Part shown: positions 33,225 through 42,272 of the stretch, one piece after another
How the letters are laid out: each line of letters begins with the position of its first letter
Numbering within the stretch: position 1 is the stretch's first letter
Source of the DNA: Acidobacteriaceae bacterium
GTDB taxonomy: Bacteria > Acidobacteriota > Terriglobia > Terriglobales > Acidobacteriaceae
Assembly: GCA_025355385.1 (NCBI GenBank)
Contig: JANXZS010000083.1
Span: forward strand, 1-64,000
Length of the DNA: 64,000 bases
Reading direction: 5' to 3'
Notes under the pieces: generated by a model
Databases searched by the model: none
Told to the model about the DNA's origin: nothing
The model's input: only the letters and a program-made list of their open reading frames with translations
Position numbers and translations under genes: made by a program

Positions 33225-35504
33225 TCAAGGATGCATATCCATCATTGGCATCGACATGGGCTTTGCGCCTATCAATGCAGGTTTCAAAGTGACCGGTCGC
33301 AGTTGCTTTTCGCCCTCCCGCAGACGAAACATGCGGTCGACGGCAACGCCGTGAAACGTCTGCGTCATCTTGCTGCCCGGCCACATCACCTCAATCTCTT
33401 CCACCGTCGTGGCTTTGCCCACTCCAATATGCTGCCGCAGGGGATTGCCGCCGAAGCTCGAACCATAGCCCACGGTGCGATAGATCTCGCGCTTACCTGC
33501 AGGCCCATCCACAGTGAGACGAATGCGCGCTCCAAATGCGGCTCGATTGGTCTTCACGCCTTCCAGCTCCAGCGTGATCCAATGATTGCCGTGCCCCGGA
33601 TTGCGATACAGCACACTCTGATAGGTATCCCCGGGAAACGCACCGCCCATCTTTTCGAAGATGTCCTCGTTGCCGTTATTTTCAAGGTCGCCAAAGGCAA
33701 TCCCATGACCCTTCTGCAGATGGCCAAAGCCGCCCGAAGTAGTTACGTCCTGAAAACTCTTTCCATCGTTATTGCGGAACATCCTGTTGGGCAGCAAAGC
33801 CTGGTAGGAGGGCTCACCGGTTCCCAGGTACACATCCAGCCATCCATCGTTATCCAGGTCGCCGAAGCCTGCTCCCATAACCAGGATGGCCCTGTCCAGA
33901 TGCATGGTCTTGCTCACATCCGTGAAGGTGCCATCGCGATTGTTTCGATAAAGCCGGGGCAGTTCCGCATGGAATGGTTTGCCGGTTTCGAAGGCGCCTA
34001 CATCATGCATAGAACTCGCCGAATAGCCAGCCACGAAGATGTCGGGCCATCCATCGTTATCAAAGTCGAAGAACCACGTCGCGAAGGTCTCCATCTGCTG
34101 GGCCACTCCGGCCTGGTCGGTCACATCAGAGAACTTCCACTGCTCAGGCTGCGGATGCTTCGCATCCCTCGGGCCATCGTTGCGGAAGAGATGATTGCGG
34201 CCGCCCTTCACCGAAACATATAGATCAGGCCTTCCATCGTTGTTGAAGTCGCCCCACGCAACACCCTTCACAAACCCCATGTCAGCTAGGTGGTTTGGGA
34301 CTGCTACTTCGTTGAAGGTGCCATCGCCGTTGTTGTGGAAGAGCTGCGAAGGATGCGGATCGCCAGGCGTGGATTCGTGCCCCACATACACGTCGAGCCA
34401 GCCATCGTTGTCGAAGTCCGCCCATGCCGCGGTCTGCGTAGGATGCATCGACATCAATCCTGCACTCTCGGTTACGTCGTCAAACGTGCCGTTCCCGTTG
34501 TTGCGCAGCAACGACATGGGGTAGTCGCCGAACTTGCCCCACCATCCGCCGCGCAGAACCAGCACGTCAGGGTGGCCGTCATTGTTATAGTCCGTCAGTA
34601 CCAGGTTCAGTCCGCCGAGTTCGTCCGCAAGACCGGCCTCGCGACTACGGTCGGTAAAAGTTCCATCCCCGTTGTTATGGAAGAAGTGCAGGGGATCGAG
34701 CGGACCTGAAGAAGACACCATCAGATCCAGCAGTCCATCCCCGTCGAAGTCCTCCATCAGAACGCCCCCCGAGTGGCCGGTGTCAGCAAGGCCTGCAGAG
34801 GGTGCTGCGTCGACAAAGTCGCCGAGGTCATACTCTGAATCAAAAAGCGTCCCGGAGATGAGCCACTTCTGCGGCACATCTTGAGGGTATTTTCCGAGTT
34901 GCATGTAAGCCACGTTCAGCAACCAGCGGGACTCGGAATCTCCGGGGAATTGCGCAAGCAGTGCAGTCAACTCGCGCACCGCGCCCTCTGCTCCTCGCGG
35001 TAATTTGTGGACGGCTGAGGCCCGAAGCGGAAATACGCAGGACTTCTGCCCATGAAAGTGTAAGCAGTTTTCCTGCTCTCCAAGCCTCATGTAGGAGATG
35101 GCCAGCACTTCCCGCAGGTGGCGATCAAACTCCGGCGGCGTGGTGGCGGACTTGTCCCTGATGATTCCGCGCAGTTCTTCGAGAGTCCTGATCGCACCCT
35201 CGCTGTCTCCAGCGCGCAGCAGCTCATTGGCCAGTTCCTGGCGGACGATCAGCTCATCTTTCAGCGCCAATCGCGTTGTGAGCAGCCCATTATAGTATTC
35301 CGCCCGCGTTGCCGGCTTGTTGGGATCCGCTTTCCAGTCGTTTTCGCTATAGATTTTCCTGAGCAGAAGTCCCATCGTCTTCGCGCCTGCTGACTCATAG
35401 TACGGAGTCTTGGCGTCCTGCGAGAGCACAGATCCTGCCGCCGCCAGGGCGAACGCAGCAAGCAGAGGCGCAACGCGTCGAAGGGACCAAGGGGGAGTGC
35501 CCAT
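33225..35504 (-). CDS. FG-GAP/ASPIC-UnbV protein C with N-terminal TPR-like region (CRTAC1 type)
   Basis: A 759-aa exported protein. The signal peptide (RRVAPLLAAFALAAAGSVLS) is followed by an alpha-helical, TPR-like region to about residue 220, which contains a Cys/His cluster (CLHFHGQKSCVF) and ends with SRWLLNVAYMQLGKYPQDVP. Then come FG-GAP units (DFDGDGLLDL, DYNNDGHPDV, DFNNDGRPDL, DLDNDGWLDV) and an ASPIC/UnbV module (NRAAFGARIRLTVDGPAGK). The last 15 residues are Met-rich (KPMSMPMMDMHP), resembling copper-binding tails; that is speculative. I chose the ATG at 35504 over a TTG three codons earlier. Divergent from gene D. Confidence 0.87.
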   Translation of the reverse strand: MGTPPWSLRRVAPLLAAFALAAAGSVLSQDAKTPYYESAGAKTMGLLLRKIYSENDWKADPNKPATRAEYYNGLLTTRLALKDELIVRQELANELLRAGDSEGAIRTLEELRGIIRDKSATTPPEFDRHLREVLAISYMRLGEQENCLHFHGQKSCVFPLRASAVHKLPRGAEGAVRELTALLAQFPGDSESRWLLNVAYMQLGKYPQDVPQKWLISGTLFDSEYDLGDFVDAAPSAGLADTGHSGGVLMEDFDGDGLLDLMVSSSGPLDPLHFFHNNGDGTFTDRSREAGLADELGGLNLVLTDYNNDGHPDVLVLRGGWWGKFGDYPMSLLRNNGNGTFDDVTESAGLMSMHPTQTAAWADFDNDGWLDVYVGHESTPGDPHPSQLFHNNGDGTFNEVAVPNHLADMGFVKGVAWGDFNNDGRPDLYVSVKGGRNHLFRNDGPRDAKHPQPEQWKFSDVTDQAGVAQQMETFATWFFDFDNDGWPDIFVAGYSASSMHDVGAFETGKPFHAELPRLYRNNRDGTFTDVSKTMHLDRAILVMGAGFGDLDNDGWLDVYLGTGEPSYQALLPNRMFRNNDGKSFQDVTTSGGFGHLQKGHGIAFGDLENNGNEDIFEKMGGAFPGDTYQSVLYRNPGHGNHWITLELEGVKTNRAAFGARIRLTVDGPAGKREIYRTVGYGSSFGGNPLRQHIGVGKATTVEEIEVMWPGSKMTQTFHGVAVDRMFRLREGEKQLRPVTLKPALIGAKPMSMPMMDMHP

Positions 35505-35674
35505 AACTAGCAATCTAGCATCCGGCGAGGATGTCGTCGGCGTTGGGATTGACTTTATGAATCGTCGCTATCTGGCGGGGTTGATAAAGGCACAGGCCAC
35601 ACCCTACACTTCTTAGAGAGGACGCCGTCGCCCCCCTTGCCGAACCCTGTGATTTTCTTATTGAGTGCAATATT

Positions 35675-37492
35675 TTGCCTGTAAACCTGGAGTTCGTTGT
35701 CTGCTGCCCCAGTAGAATTCGCCGGGTGGCCGCCGCCGTCCTGCTTCTCACCACGATGAATGCTGGGGGCTTGTGCGCGGCTGGTGCTCAGACTGGCGCG
35801 TCCAGTACGGCCACGGCGCGGTCCGGGCCAGCACCCATGCCACCGGCAGAGGGGGTGAATGGCAACTTCACCGACATCACCGCGAAATCCGGTGTTCACT
35901 TTCGCAACATGTCCACGCATACTGCAAAAAAGTACCTGATCGAGACCATGGGGTCTGGCGTGGCGTTGTTTGACTACGACAATGACGGTCTGCTGGACAT
36001 CTACTTTGTAAACGTCGCCCCACTCAAAGACCCCACTCCTAAAGGCACGATTCCGCAAAAGTCTGGCCCTGAGTATTGGAACCGTCTCTACCACCAGAAG
36101 AAAGACGGCACCTTTGAAGATGTGACCGAGAAAGCCGGATTGCAGGGTGCGGGTTACGGGCAGGGCGTGGCGGTGGCCGACTATGACAACGATGGCTATG
36201 AAGATCTCTACGTTACCTCTGCCGTAGGCCCGAATCATCTTTACCACAACAATGGCAATGGGACATTTACCGATGTCACCGAATCCTCGGGTACTGGGGG
36301 CCCGGGTATCTGGTCTTCGAGCGCCGCCTGGGCAGATCTCGACGGCGATGGCTTGCTCGACCTGATTGTCACCCGCTATATGAAGTGGGATTTCGATGAC
36401 GTTTGGTGCGGCGAGCACCGCGAGGGATTTCGTGGCTACTGCCACCCGGATATCTTCGAAGCGGCGGCGCCACTCGTCTTCCACAACGACGGCCACGGAC
36501 ACTTTACCGAGGTAGCGAAGAAAATCGGGCTCGACGTGCCCGGCAAGGGTCTGGGCATTGCTATAGCGGACTATGACCGCGACGGCCACCCTGACGTCCT
36601 CATCGCCAACGACGCCATGGTTGAGCATCTCTACCACAACAAGGGCGACGGCACCTTTGAAGAAGTTGGCCTGCTGTCGGAGATTGCCGTGGATGGCGAT
36701 GGGCGAACCTACTCCGGGATGGGCGCGGACTTCTCCGACTACAACAATGACGGATGGCCTGACATCGTTATCACCGATCTGGCCAACCAGAAGTATGCCC
36801 TCTACCTGAATAACGGCGATGGCAGCTTTACCTACGCCAGCCACACCAGCGGGATCGGAAGTATGACCCTGCTGCACTCCGGCTGGGGAATCAGCTTTAT
36901 GGATTATGACAACGATGGGTGGAAAGATCTCATGATCGTCCAGTCCCACGTCATGGACAACATTGAATTAAGCTTCCCCCAGCTGCGCTATCCCGAGGCC
37001 ATGCTGCTGGCACGCAATACCGGTAAAGGCTTCAGCAATGTTTCTGCCAGTTCGGGCGACGTTTTCAAACACACCTGGGTCAGTCGCGGACTCGCTGTCG
37101 GCGACATCGACAATGATGGTCGCCTTGACGCCGTCATCAGCACCAACGACGGGCCTGCTTATGTCATCCACAACGACACACAGACCAAAAACCATTGGCT
37201 GCTCCTCGACCTGGTTGGCCACAAGAGCAACCGCGACGCCATCGGCGCACAGATCAAGCTGACCACACCCCACGGCAGCCAGTACGTTACCGTCTCAACG
37301 ACGGGCAGCTATCAATCTTCAAAAGACAAGCGCGCGCATTTCGGAATGGGTTCCGACCTAGTGGCGCAATCGATTGAGATTCGCTGGCCCAGTGGCATCG
37401 TGCAAGTGCTGAAAGACGTCAAGGCTGACCAGATTCTGAAAGTAGACGAGCCCTCGCAGCCTCCAGCGCCCGCTGGCGTACAAAAGCCCTGA
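35675..37492 (+). CDS. FG-GAP/ASPIC-UnbV protein D (CRTAC1 type)
   Basis: A 605-aa exported member of the same family, transcribed away from gene C. FG-GAP loops include LFDYDNDGLLDI, DYDNDGYEDL, DLDGDGLLDL, DYDRDGHPDV and MDYDNDGWKDL; the ASPIC/UnbV end has NRDAIGAQIKLTTPHGSQ and SKDKRAHFGMG. The start is uncertain: TTG at 35675 gives a basic n-region (SRIRR) before the hydrophobic AAAVLLL, while GTG at 35726 gives a shorter leader without charges. Neither has a good RBS. The gap of about 170 bp to gene C should hold both promoters. Confidence 0.86.
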   Translation: MPVNLEFVVCCPSRIRRVAAAVLLLTTMNAGGLCAAGAQTGASSTATARSGPAPMPPAEGVNGNFTDITAKSGVHFRNMSTHTAKKYLIETMGSGVALFDYDNDGLLDIYFVNVAPLKDPTPKGTIPQKSGPEYWNRLYHQKKDGTFEDVTEKAGLQGAGYGQGVAVADYDNDGYEDLYVTSAVGPNHLYHNNGNGTFTDVTESSGTGGPGIWSSSAAWADLDGDGLLDLIVTRYMKWDFDDVWCGEHREGFRGYCHPDIFEAAAPLVFHNDGHGHFTEVAKKIGLDVPGKGLGIAIADYDRDGHPDVLIANDAMVEHLYHNKGDGTFEEVGLLSEIAVDGDGRTYSGMGADFSDYNNDGWPDIVITDLANQKYALYLNNGDGSFTYASHTSGIGSMTLLHSGWGISFMDYDNDGWKDLMIVQSHVMDNIELSFPQLRYPEAMLLARNTGKGFSNVSASSGDVFKHTWVSRGLAVGDIDNDGRLDAVISTNDGPAYVIHNDTQTKNHWLLLDLVGHKSNRDAIGAQIKLTTPHGSQYVTVSTTGSYQSSKDKRAHFGMGSDLVAQSIEIRWPSGIVQVLKDVKADQILKVDEPSQPPAPAGVQKP

Positions 37493-37822: not shown

Positions 37823-38722
37823 CTAAGACTCCCCACCGGTGAGAGTAATGTGATTCACTATTCGCTGGATCAGCACGATGCGTATGCTGAAGTGCTTCGC
37901 TACATCGGGCAGAAACTCGGTTACGATGTTGTCAATAGGCGATGAAGCGATAGCGATTGCGGAGCTCACAGCCGTTGGCCCTGCCCCCTGCTTACGTCCC
38001 GGAACGTAAACATTCGCGAGTGTGATCGCCGCCGGAACACCAATCAGCTCGGCATAGTTAAGCATGTGATCTCCCTGGTCGCTCCGCGTCCAGATCGGAT
38101 GCACGAGCGCGTTTGCAATGCGCCGGGGAATTGAGGCTTTCGGCATCCTGTAGTAGCGCGGATCCTGCCCAGTCAGCGCAGGGACCAAAAAAGTGACAAA
38201 GAAGGCGCTAGTCATGTCCTCCGTCAGCAGCGTGCCGGAATTCTTCGCCCACCCCTTCATGCCGGGTCCATAAGCGGTGTCGGGATTGCTGCCAATGGTG
38301 ATTGCGGCACTGGCGCCGATGGTGATCAGGTTGAATGGATCCACCACGTTGCTCGCGGCTATGCGCAGCTTATCCTTCCGGGTCAGTGGCCCAGTGGCGG
38401 GCGGTTTCCCCAGGGGATAGAACAGGTCGAATTTGTGAGCACACTGAACGCCTGCAGTTTGCCGGGCAGAGGTCCCCGGTGGCGCCCCTGAAGATCCACT
38501 CGCTGGCGACGGAGGCGTAGAACAGCCCTTGTCCGGCGTGACCAGATGCGTATCCGGAGCGGCGGCCGCAACTTGAGGCAGGGGTGCATTCGGCAGCGCA
38601 GCAAACCCGTTGGGCTCAAAAACATCCTGCGCAGGCAGCCATGGGGCCACGCCTGTAAACGACACCAGAAAGGTTACCTTAAAGAACCAATTTCGCAGGG
38701 CGCTTTGGAGTGTGGGCCTCAC
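37823..38722 (-). CDS. Conserved exported acidobacterial protein, unknown function
   Basis: A 299-aa protein. A signal-type N-terminus (FFKVTFLVSFTGVAPWLPA) is followed by a Pro/Ala/Ser-rich stretch to about residue 95, then a folded part with several hydrophobic segments. Recognisable blocks are VDPFNLITIGASAAITIGS, LVPALTGQDPRYYRMP and IPRRIANALVHPIWTRSDQG. The DPRYY-R-ANAL-HP pattern recurs, from memory, in exported proteins annotated hypothetical in Acidobacteriota; no function is known. The start is GTG at 38722 with GAGGATAGAT before it. Divergent from the nirA operon. Confidence 0.75.
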   Translation of the reverse strand: MRPTLQSALRNWFFKVTFLVSFTGVAPWLPAQDVFEPNGFAALPNAPLPQVAAAAPDTHLVTPDKGCSTPPSPASGSSGAPPGTSARQTAGVQCAHKFDLFYPLGKPPATGPLTRKDKLRIAASNVVDPFNLITIGASAAITIGSNPDTAYGPGMKGWAKNSGTLLTEDMTSAFFVTFLVPALTGQDPRYYRMPKASIPRRIANALVHPIWTRSDQGDHMLNYAELIGVPAAITLANVYVPGRKQGAGPTAVSSAIAIASSPIDNIVTEFLPDVAKHFSIRIVLIQRIVNHITLTGGES

Positions 38723-39095
38723 ATCTATCCTCGAGCTTGCTCAAAGCCAACAGTTTAAAAATGCAGGGAAATCTCATGATACAACCTGCGACGCAGAAAC
38801 ACGGCGGGCGGCATATGTTCCCCTCCACCATTATTTGTAGCGTGCGAACGCAGCAAAGGTTGCGTCCCATATTTCCTTGTCTTCTATGGGCTGAGCGGGG
38901 TTGTCGCTCCTGCAGCATAGCGTTCCCAGGCCCCCTTGCAAGCCTTCTTGACTAAGGATTGGCACCCTCGTACACTTTCGAAATGGGTTCTCTCCGAGTG
39001 ATTCCGGCCATGTTCTGTAGCATGTGTATGCACATGCTGAGCCGGTGTATTCTTCGTTGAGCCTCGTACCGAGATAGAATCCGAGAGTCCAAACG
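38723..39095. other. Divergent promoter region and nirA leader, with a perfect dyad
   Basis: About 370 bp with no convincing gene. AGCATGTG-TATG-CACATGCT (39019-39038) is a perfect 8+8 inverted repeat. A small CTCG-TAC-CGAG hairpin follows at about 39064-39074. With the hairpin at 39096 this gives a structured leader before nirA. Confidence 0.45.
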
Positions 39096-39141
39096 AAGCC
39101 CGCGCTACAGCCACAAGCTGATAGCGCGGGCTTTCTATTTT
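39096..39141 (+). promoter_or_regulatory. Attenuator-like terminator hairpin in the nirA leader
   Basis: AAGCCCGCGCTA and TAGCGCGGGCTT form a perfect 12-bp stem with a 14-nt loop, followed by TTCTATTTT, ending only a few bases before the GAGGGAGAG ribosome-binding site of nirA. The nearest upstream rightward gene ended 1.6 kb earlier and the adjacent gene is divergent. A terminator at this site therefore suggests conditional termination of the siroheme operon. Confidence 0.65.
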
Positions 39142-39151
39142 GAGGGAGAGC

Positions 39152-40849
39152 ATGGCCACAGACATTCCGGTAAAAGAATCGAAAACGCAGAAGATGGAGC
39201 GGCTGAAGCGCGAAAAGAATCCCTGGGAGGCATTCGAGGAGATACGCGCCTTCGCTCGGGAAGGCCGCGCCAGCGTGCTGCCGGAGTGGGCCAATACCTA
39301 CTTCAAGTGGTGGGGTGTCTATACGCAGGGCGATGGCGTGGGTGCCGTCGGCGGGGTGGGCGGAGAGGGCAAGGCCACCGAATATTTCATGATGCGTATC
39401 GGCATACCCAATGGCTTGCTGACTTCAGCGCAGCTTCGCGTCATTGGTGGTCTAACCAAGCAGTACGCGCGCAATTTGGCAGACATAACGGTTCGTCAGA
39501 ATATCCAGCTGCACTGGCTGACGATTGAATCGTTGCCCGCCATCGTAGAGGCTCTGACCGCAATCGGACTCTCGCCCAAGGGTGCCTGCGGAGACGTCGT
39601 CCGCAACGTCACAGGTTGTCCTTTGGCCGGAATTGCGGCCGATGAACTCGTCGATGCCTCGCCCCTGGCCGTCGAAGCAGCCCGGATGCTCACCGCCAAT
39701 CCCGAGTTTTACAATCTGCCCCGCAAATTCAAGGTGTCCATCACCGGCTGCCCGGTATGGTGCTCCTATCCGGAGATCAACGACATTGGCCTGACGGCAG
39801 TTCGCCGCGGCGCGGAGGTGGGCTACGCGATCCGCATCGGCGGCGGCCTTTCGAAAGAGCCGCACCTCGCGGTCAAACTGAATGCTTTTGTCCGCCCCGA
39901 TCAAGCCATCGCGGTTATACACGGGGTCACCGAGATCTTCCGCAGGCAGCAGGGGCTGCGCGAAAGCCGCGACCGCGCCCGCCTCAAGTATCTCTTCCTC
40001 AAGGAGGGCTGGACACCGGAAAGCTTCCTCTCCGAACTGGAATCGCAGATAGGCTTCCGTCTTGATTCCGCCGTGGATGAGCAGGTCCCAGACGATATTT
40101 ACCGTGACCATGTCGGCATACACGCACAGAAGCAGCCGGGGCTGAGCTACGTTGGCGCCTCCGTCCTGGGAGGCAGGCTGAGCGGCGATCAACTTAAACA
40201 AGCCGCCGATCTCGCCGCGCGTTTTGGCTCGGGCCAACTGCGCGCCACTGTAATGCAGAACTTCGTCATCGTGAACGTACCCAACGCGCGCACCAGCGAA
40301 CTTGTGCGCGAGCTGAACCACGTTGGCTTGCGGGTTGAGGCGAGCAACTTTTTCCGTGGCTCCGTCGCCTGCACTGGCACGGAGTTCTGCAAGCTCGCTA
40401 TCACCGAGACGAAGGGCTTTAGTCGGTGGTTAGTCGAGGAGCTGGAAGAGAGGCTGCCCGGTTTCGACCAGCAACTCAAACTGCACGTTACCGGATGCCC
40501 CAACAGTTGCGGTCAGCATTGGATTGCGGATATTGGCCTTGAGGGCAAGAAGATCAAGCACGAGGGCAAGCTCACCGATGCTTACTACTTCTGCGTAGGA
40601 GGGGCTGTGGGCGAGCATGCGGGGATCGCGCGTCCACTGGGCTTTCGTTGCCCTGCAGTGTTGGTGCCGGAAGCCATCGAGCGCTTGCTGCGAGGGTATC
40701 TGCGCGAGCGGCGCCCGGAAGAAAATCTGCGCGGCTACTTCGCCCGGTACTCCGATGAGGATCTGCGCGTGCAAGTTGCCGGGGCAGTGGTCGAAGCAGC
40801 GGAGCGCGATGTGCCCGCCGGTCGCGTGCCGCACGGAGCAGCGGAATGA
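39152..40849 (+). CDS. nirA: Siroheme-dependent nitrite/sulfite reductase
   Basis: A 565-aa cytoplasmic six-electron reductase of the ferredoxin nitrite/sulfite reductase family. Two half-repeats are visible; the first holds TGCPLAG (near residue 154) and TGCPVWCSYPE (near 199). The second holds the siroheme/[4Fe-4S] ligands as ACTGTEFCKLA (near 406) and TGCPNSCGQHW (near 448). The motif order fits either nitrite (NirA) or sulfite reduction; no nitrate or sulfate assimilation gene is adjacent to decide. The start at 39152 has GAGGGAGAG before it. Its stop overlaps the next ATG, and the two following genes make siroheme, its cofactor. Confidence 0.9.
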   Translation: MATDIPVKESKTQKMERLKREKNPWEAFEEIRAFAREGRASVLPEWANTYFKWWGVYTQGDGVGAVGGVGGEGKATEYFMMRIGIPNGLLTSAQLRVIGGLTKQYARNLADITVRQNIQLHWLTIESLPAIVEALTAIGLSPKGACGDVVRNVTGCPLAGIAADELVDASPLAVEAARMLTANPEFYNLPRKFKVSITGCPVWCSYPEINDIGLTAVRRGAEVGYAIRIGGGLSKEPHLAVKLNAFVRPDQAIAVIHGVTEIFRRQQGLRESRDRARLKYLFLKEGWTPESFLSELESQIGFRLDSAVDEQVPDDIYRDHVGIHAQKQPGLSYVGASVLGGRLSGDQLKQAADLAARFGSGQLRATVMQNFVIVNVPNARTSELVRELNHVGLRVEASNFFRGSVACTGTEFCKLAITETKGFSRWLVEELEERLPGFDQQLKLHVTGCPNSCGQHWIADIGLEGKKIKHEGKLTDAYYFCVGGAVGEHAGIARPLGFRCPAVLVPEAIERLLRGYLRERRPEENLRGYFARYSDEDLRVQVAGAVVEAAERDVPAGRVPHGAAE

Positions 40850-41475
40850 ATCTTCTTCCTGTCTTTCTCAAGCTGACATCGCGGCACTGCGTGGTCATCG
40901 GCGCTGGGGTGATCGCGCTGGATAAAATCCACAGTCTGCTTGGAGCCGAGGCCCATGTGCAGGTCGTCGCGCCCGAGGCATTACCAGAAATAGAGGGGCT
41001 GGCCACAGCCGGTAAGATTACGTGGCAGCGTCGCGCATTTGATCTCAACGACGTCGAAGGGGCCTTCCTGGTCATCGCCGCCACCAACACCGCGGCGGTC
41101 AATCAAGCGGTGTATCGCACGGCAGTAGAGCGCGGCATCCTTTGCAACGCGGTTGACGATCCACCGCATTGTGACTTTTATTTTGGATCAGTCGTACGGC
41201 GCGGCGATCTGCAGATTGCCATCTCGACTGCGGGTGAAAGTCCCGCGCTGGCCCAGCGACTACGGCGCGAGATCCATGAGCAATTGCCTGAAGATCTCGG
41301 CCCATGGCTCGCCAACCTGGGCAAATTGCGACGGGATGTGATGGCTGCTTATCCCGCTGGGGAAGAACGTAAGTTGCTGCTGCACCAGCTTGCGCAGCGC
41401 TCGGTCTGCGACTTGGCTACATGCCCTTCCCGCCAGCTTGCCTTCGCGCCAGCACGTTCGGAGGTGGCAGGATGA
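40846..41475 (+). CDS. Precorrin-2 dehydrogenase/sirohydrochlorin ferrochelatase
   Basis: A 209-aa protein equal to the N-terminal half of CysG (Met8p type), which oxidises precorrin-2 and inserts iron in the last steps of siroheme synthesis. Seen: MNLLPVFLKLTSRHCVVIGA, then GAGVIALDKIHSLLG (NAD site), FLVIAATNTAAVNQAVYRTA, ILCNAVDDPPHCDFYFGSVV and IAISTAGESPALAQRLRREI. The ATG overlaps the nirA stop by 4 bases and its own stop overlaps the next ATG. The dinucleotide loop reads GAGVIA rather than the usual GGG-VA form, a small departure. Confidence 0.92.
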   Translation: MNLLPVFLKLTSRHCVVIGAGVIALDKIHSLLGAEAHVQVVAPEALPEIEGLATAGKITWQRRAFDLNDVEGAFLVIAATNTAAVNQAVYRTAVERGILCNAVDDPPHCDFYFGSVVRRGDLQIAISTAGESPALAQRLRREIHEQLPEDLGPWLANLGKLRRDVMAAYPAGEERKLLLHQLAQRSVCDLATCPSRQLAFAPARSEVAG

Positions 41476-42272
41476 ACGCCGGGGAGAAGGGAACTGTCTA
41501 CCTGGTTGGTGCCGGTCCCGGCGATCCCGAGCTGCTTACCGTGAAAGCCTCGCGTCTGCTTGCATCCTGCGACGTGGTGCTGCACGACGATTTGGTGCCC
41601 GCCGCGGTCCTTGCGGTTGCCAATCCACGCGCCTGGATTCTCAACGTTGGCAAGCGCTGCGGCATGAAGGGCGTGACCCAGGAGGAGATCAACTTTGTGA
41701 TGATCGATCAGGCGCGCAAGGGCCAGTGCGTTGTCCGCTTGAAGATTGGCGACCCTCTCATTTTTGGGCGTGCCGCGGAAGAGATGGATGCACTGCGCGC
41801 GGCCGGAGTAATTTGCGAAGTAATCCCCGGCATCACTGCAGCATTTGCCGCCGCCGCCGCAATCCAGTGCTCGCTAACCGACCGGCGGTGGGCATCGTCC
41901 GTCCTTTTCTCCACCGGCCATCACGCAAGCGAGTCCGAGCCGCTTGCACCCAGAACTCGCGATGCCACCCGAGTCGTCTACATGCCCGGGCGCGACCTCG
42001 CGCTCATCGCTTCCCAGTGGCGGGGAGAAGGGTTGCCGGACTCGCTGCCCTGCATCGTGGTCAGTCGCGCGGCACAGCCGGATCAACAGGCTCAACGCAC
42101 CACGTTGCGCGAACTCGCAAGCATCGAGCCGGGGCCTACTCCCGTGCTTGTTCTTGCTGGTGAGACACTGGCCAACGCCGTGTTGCCCATCCCTCGAGAG
42201 ATTGTGTTTACTGCCGCATTGCCTAACGAGATTGTCGCGCACTATCTACCCTTGTTCGGACAGCAACCCTGA
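41472..42272 (+). CDS. cobA: Uroporphyrinogen-III C-methyltransferase
   Basis: Methylates uroporphyrinogen III at C2 and C7 with SAM to give precorrin-2, the first step of the siroheme branch. The 266-aa protein has VYLVGAGPGDPELLTVKASR, VVLHDDLV, RLKIGDPLIFGRAAEEMDAL, EVIPGITAAFAAAA and the late MPGRDLALIA block, all typical of SUMT. It is the third gene of the nirA operon; GAGGTGGCAGG precedes the ATG, which overlaps the previous stop. Split CysG functions on separate genes are common. A hairpin follows the stop. Confidence 0.94.
   Translation: MNAGEKGTVYLVGAGPGDPELLTVKASRLLASCDVVLHDDLVPAAVLAVANPRAWILNVGKRCGMKGVTQEEINFVMIDQARKGQCVVRLKIGDPLIFGRAAEEMDALRAAGVICEVIPGITAAFAAAAAIQCSLTDRRWASSVLFSTGHHASESEPLAPRTRDATRVVYMPGRDLALIASQWRGEGLPDSLPCIVVSRAAQPDQQAQRTTLRELASIEPGPTPVLVLAGETLANAVLPIPREIVFTAALPNEIVAHYLPLFGQQP

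Follow-up and report, generated by a model that had tools for sequence, protein, structure and literature searches.

A predicted cysteine-responsive transcription attenuator, built on a putative leaderless short ORF and an intrinsic terminator, precedes nirA and siroheme genes in Acidobacteriota

The 64,000-nucleotide stretch of DNA analysed here (the window) carries, in front of nirA and the siroheme genes, a leader that we read, with a probability of roughly 0.87, as a cysteine-responsive, ribosome-mediated transcription attenuator. The Cys-rich peptide that it encodes points to a translating ribosome as the most likely sensor, following the logic of the trp leader, rather than to a ligand-binding aptamer, and to charged tRNA-Cys as the signal. 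The short ORF, a promoter match next to its start codon, an intrinsic terminator, and alternative pairings together with their conservation were computed from the window and its relatives (Table 1).

Table 1. Features of the nirA leader and operon in the window
Feature	Position	Strand	Details
Sigma70-like promoter (consensus match)	38948..38976	+	-35 TTGACT 38948-53, 17-nt spacer, -10 TACACT 38971-76
Leader ORF MGSLRVIPAMFCSMCMHMLSRCILR, ending in a stop codon	38983..39060	+	25 codons; Cys codons at 39016, 39025, 39046; unannotated
Protector (1:2) hairpin	39004..39045	+	39004-08/39041-45, apical stem 39019-26/39031-38
Antiterminator (2:3)	39036..39111	+	39036-47 with 39099-111, 39052-58 with 39092-98; leader stop codon enclosed
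Intrinsic terminator (3:4)	39095..39141	+	stem 39095-39134, -30.1 kcal/mol, T-rich tract to 39141
nirA ribosome-binding site	39142..39148	+	GAGGGAG, read from sequence
nirA, NirA-family siroheme-dependent reductase, probably sulfite reductase	39152..40849	+	
Siroheme synthase N-terminal domain protein (precorrin-2 dehydrogenase)	40846..41475	+	
Uroporphyrinogen-III C-methyltransferase	41472..42272	+	start 41421 or 41472

All three hairpins listed in the earlier note were recovered: a perfect 8+8 hairpin (AGCATGTG/CACATGCT, 100% complementary), a small CTCG/CGAG hairpin at 39063-66/39070-73, and a 12-bp stem (39096-107/39122-133) followed by TTCTATTTT. The last of these is, as had been proposed, a strong intrinsic terminator directly 5' of the nirA ribosome-binding site, and the upstream gene (37823-38722, - strand) is indeed divergent from the nirA operon. 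The CTCG/CGAG hairpin is a minor piece of the spacer. The earlier note lacked the basal stem of the protector hairpin and both helices of the antiterminator, as well as the leader ORF, within which the 8+8 hairpin lies. Folding of the 171-nt leader (38990-39160) yielded -71.4 kcal/mol, compared to -50.2 kcal/mol for dinucleotide shuffles (z = -5.2), and none of 200 shuffles was as good. The divergent gene encodes a 299-aa protein that matched no NCBIfam or Pfam family. Upstream of it, positions 33225-37492 of the window encode two large proteins on opposite strands with repeated D-x-D-x-DG segments that look FG-GAP/VCBS-like by eye.

The promoter agrees with the consensus at 9 of 12 positions, and the start site predicted from this match lies upstream of all hairpins; a start downstream of the hairpin had been named in the earlier note as speaking against a structured leader. 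The ATG of the leader ORF follows the -10 box by about 6–7 nt. Transcription from this promoter would therefore begin on the AUG or right next to it, which makes the ORF probably leaderless. When the 64-kb window was scanned for ATG-initiated short ORFs that have a promoter next to the start and a terminator behind them, this ORF was the sole match. By itself it is a weak example, with only three Cys codons and four internal Met codons, i.e. more Met than Cys; the leader of the sister species has one Cys more.

We collected regions upstream of nirA orthologues from the same family and order and from a set of named genomes, mostly Acidobacteriaceae and other Terriglobia but with orthologues also from Rokubacteria, Methylomirabilota, Gemmatimonadota and Armatimonadota. 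In most acidobacterial leaders, the same position is taken by a Cys-rich short ORF with 3–10 Cys codons and a terminator behind it (for example MNNFSNLRRMCMCPCCCCACVCSGVGRSLT, MALCPMPVMCCACCCALRRTCG and MSGSQNFRQMCRCTCCCCCCCCAFVSSDARGLLT, each closed by a stop codon), and most leaders carry a like promoter at an equal distance from the leader ATG. Of 98 upstream regions from the family, 62% had a short ORF that combines four or more Cys with a promoter next to its start, against 0.2% of shuffles; lowering the limit to three Cys gave 71% and 0.4%. No recognisable Cys ORF was found in a minority of the acidobacterial relatives. The cultured Terracidiphilus gabretensis (L157) has a leader of the window's type. 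Among 20 orthologues from other phyla, a set picked after the leader results had been seen, none had a Cys short ORF with promoter; this control omits three leader carriers (L150, L162 and L219) as well as three loci whose upstream sequence was short. As we count them, 3 of 26 named-genome loci labelled as other phyla carry a Cys leader. L150, L162 and L219 are nirA orthologues with an acidobacterial-type Cys leader in bins assigned to Opitutia, Verrucomicrobia and Betaproteobacteria, respectively, which could be explained by mis-binning or horizontal transfer.

For further analysis, 89 leaders were chosen by the presence of at least 3 Cys codons. The -10 box lies 5–15 nt before the ATG in 76 of them, mostly at 6–7 nt, and their Cys codons are TGT:TGC = 329:160, compared to 13:43 in the window genes. 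A terminator-like hairpin follows the ORF in 88 of the 89 leaders, at a median of 29 nt beyond the stop codon, and 84% of the leaders have a terminator of -14 kcal/mol or lower, compared to 0.7% of shuffles. These data bear on the possibility that the Cys ORF acts by translational attenuation, in which stalling would make the nirA ribosome-binding site more or less accessible and the hairpin would not serve mainly as a terminator. Such a mode would fit the leaderless poly-Cys short ORFs of M. smegmatis, which are reported to act on translation; it would also fit a terminator that ends just before the ribosome-binding site, and a full-length fold that pairs 39006-16 with 39147-57, including the nirA start. 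However, the stable stem with its T-tract recurs in nearly every leader, and the distance between terminator and nirA start varies widely among relatives, so that we regard translational attenuation as unlikely.

Transcription attenuation would require a structure that competes with the terminator, and the antiterminator is predicted to be mutually exclusive with it and to overlap the leader ORF. Energies were calculated by taking the ribosome footprint as approximately 16 nt from the P-site. In this model, with a ribosome stalled at Cys12, the RNA left free up to the 5' arm of the terminator folds into the antiterminator at -24.7 kcal/mol, and with the ribosome at the stop codon the terminator alone remains. 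The antiterminator had a z of -2.10 in the window leader and -3.18 in that of the sister species; over the leaders, the mean z against dinucleotide shuffles was -1.68 for the antiterminator region and -1.86 for the ORF. In the stalled state modelled for all leaders, 58% of the bases in the terminator 5' arm paired with the ORF, compared to 25% when the upstream part was shuffled (Wilcoxon P = 1e-15). When the last 12 codons were tested as a simple duplex with the 5' arm of the terminator, significance was modest (mean z -0.97; P≤0.05 in 25% of leaders; swap test P = 4e-6), as such a test leaves the inner helix out of account; tests on the full fold were stronger. A 7-bp match (39015-21/39104-10) was also considered as antiterminator and dropped, since it lies on the first Cys codon and would be masked by the stalled ribosome.

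Conservation of the pairing was visible in several ways. One large leader type displays four segments, GCCAG, CTGGC, GCCAG and CTGGC, in this order, most clearly in L073, L011 and L083. In 27 leaders of this type, covariation was seen between the bases next to segments 2 and 3 (permutation P = 0.004, with shared ancestry ignored). A gap-free column test of the antiterminator pairs let little covariation be read, because the CUGGC/GCCAG core is mostly invariant. In the first hairpin, the U-A pair 39023-39034 of the window is C-G in the sister species (L002), a change that recodes both amino acids, Met to Thr and Met to Val; at this pair, to judge from the two sequences, the RNA structure takes precedence over the peptide. 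The lack of covariation among relatives that the earlier note had held out as an argument against the leader was thus not what we found: pairing is kept, with a compensatory change.

We propose the following course of events, of which the start site, the translation and stalling, and the cysteine response are predictions. RNA synthesis from the promoter would begin at or beside the AUG of the Cys-rich ORF. With ample Cys-tRNA, the ribosome would get to the stop codon at 39058-60, where it would cover the inner antiterminator helix and the adjoining outer strand; the terminator would then form, and transcription would stop before nirA. If Cys-tRNA runs short, the ribosome would stall at Cys12 or Cys15 and mask the 5' arm of the protector hairpin, so that 39036-39058 would be free to pair with 39092-39111. 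As this pairing takes the 5' arm of the terminator, nirA and the siroheme genes would be transcribed. If the leader is not translated at all, protector hairpin and terminator would together hold the operon off.

The earlier note had left the choice between an attenuator and a riboswitch and recognised no known class. The covariance-model search that it suggested was run with Rfam 15, and no family reached the gathering threshold in the leader; relaxed to E≤5, it returned only Leu_leader and Trp_leader, both far below threshold. A long structured leader with a terminator as expression platform could also be a riboswitch that binds SAM, siroheme or some other sulfur metabolite, and downstream sulfur and siroheme genes are typical riboswitch targets. 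Against this, there is no Rfam match, the structured part is a coding frame in which the Cys codons are kept while most other sequence changes, and a conserved aptamer-like core was not seen across the leaders. We therefore retain the attenuator and consider a riboswitch very unlikely; nor is the absence of a known class supported, as a Cys-rich leader peptide fits the trp-leader logic.

With the RNA switch unchanged, peptide or ribosome might instead sense a cue other than tRNA-Cys, such as thiol redox or methionine plus cysteine. The four Met codons amid the Cys codons of the window leader would agree with this, and redox has been proposed as an alternative for the mycobacterial ORFs (PMC4633059). 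In the 89 leaders, however, Cys makes up 22.6% of the residues, a value made high by construction through the choice of leaders with three or more Cys, and non-initial Met 5.5%; what is kept across leaders is the number of Cys codons and not one peptide sequence, and a different cue is accordingly highly improbable. That a non-functional ORF stands by chance before an ordinary terminator is scarcely credible: the window ORF with its few Cys codons might suggest it, as might promoter-less Cys ORFs this strong in approximately 10% of shuffled regions, but it is contradicted by conservation and by the shuffle tests of fold, ORF, terminator and antiterminator.

The genes behind the leader bear on the nature of the signal. 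The closest solved relative of the window nirA product is M. tuberculosis NirA, a sulfite reductase, and from this similarity the product named 'nirA' is probably a sulfite reductase as well; the predicted function of the operon would be to make sulfide for cysteine. In the related genomes G005, G006, G007, G010, G012, G014 and G015, nirA is closely followed by a PF01507 (cysH-like) gene. The signal would then be sulfur (cysteine) and not nitrogen, given the siroheme genes cotranscribed with nirA and the cysH gene that closely follows it in several relatives.

The regulon in the window's genome was sampled via PF01507 loci and the promoter pattern; cysN and the receptor-like gene were named by eye. 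On contig C151, a cysD-cysN-cysH locus has a Cys-rich ORF (MASTLTLRLCRMNRSCCTCNSMRICRRGCEHG, then stop) with start-adjacent promoter and terminator, and a further Cys leader (MKPSATITCCICLTTCSVMWRRGPTIV, then stop) precedes the receptor-like gene that lies divergently next to this locus. This locus (L118, G000:C151) thus contains two divergent Cys-rich ORFs with terminators, both predicted to be leaderless, with starts at 1161 (-) and 2632 (+). The strict promoter-ATG pattern had 11 matches in the genome, two of which are Cys leaders. Taken together, the Cys leaders on C151, the cysH context and these 2 of 11 matches support a cysteine signal and a small regulon. Between the first leader with its terminator and the receptor-like gene lies another poly-Cys ORF, with CCCSCC before its stop codon, in L118 (G000:C151 near 41962-41982) and in L116 (G001:C9 near 250608-250628); in a pattern search of the relatives, this second ORF at the receptor locus was found within the window's genus only. 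A similar Cys run occurs at G000:C49 (L236).

The mechanism as such is known, and here it would very probably operate in a new bacterial phylum and in an unusual form, a leaderless ORF with an intrinsic terminator. The finding extends the range of poly-Cys leader ORFs beyond actinobacteria and alphaproteobacteria, implies that such ORFs can act through an intrinsic terminator, and points to a probable sulfite reductase behind the name 'nirA' in these bacteria. We see roughly an even chance that the sulfate-to-cysteine pathway of Acidobacteriota is run by a regulon of leaderless poly-Cys attenuators (nirA-siroheme, cysD-cysN-cysH and the receptor-like gene) each with an intrinsic terminator at its end, rather than by a CysB-type regulator or an S-box riboswitch. 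A leaderless attenuator also poses the question of how RNA polymerase and a ribosome that loads on a 5'-terminal AUG stay synchronised.

The enterobacterial trp, his and leu leaders likewise encode a peptide rich in the regulated amino acid and use alternative 1:2, 2:3 and 3:4 pairings that lead to an intrinsic terminator. Enterobacterial amino-acid leaders use a Shine-Dalgarno site, whereas the ORF described here is predicted to be leaderless, and its antiterminator starts inside the ORF and encloses the stop codon. Leaderless genes were predicted to account for approximately 13% of the genes in three Acidobacteria genomes (PMC3160421). In the open-access literature searched, we found no leaderless poly-Cys ORF with intrinsic terminator and antiterminator in Acidobacteriota. 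The uORFC-8-2 motif before cysS in Rhodobacterales combines a uORF with tandem Cys codons and a terminator, and ribosome-mediated transcription attenuation was proposed for it (PMC8632094). In contrast to the acidobacterial leaders with their 3–10 Cys codons, mostly UGU, it belongs to a cysteinyl-tRNA synthetase gene in another lineage and usually has two Cys codons, mostly UGC (PMC8632094). Cys leader peptides of Mycobacterium were first predicted, without terminators, by Seliverstov et al. (2005, PMC1262725), and the ORFs were later found to be leaderless (Shell et al. 2015, PMC4633059); as polycysteine attenuators (Canestrari et al. 2020, as cited in PMC9031893, PMC13236596 and PMC9094748), they are reported to act on translation. 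As is predicted for the acidobacterial system, the mycobacterial one places a leaderless short ORF with Cys runs before genes of cysteine or sulfur metabolism and makes the speed of the ribosome cysteine-dependent, and the acidobacterial system may share its ancestry with the mycobacterial one or may have originated independently. The mycobacterial leaders have no obvious terminator and are described as translational, whereas nearly every acidobacterial leader analysed further here has an intrinsic terminator, joined by a predicted antiterminator. The leader thus works partly like the mycobacterial leaderless polycysteine attenuators and, because of its terminators, is not classed as one of them.
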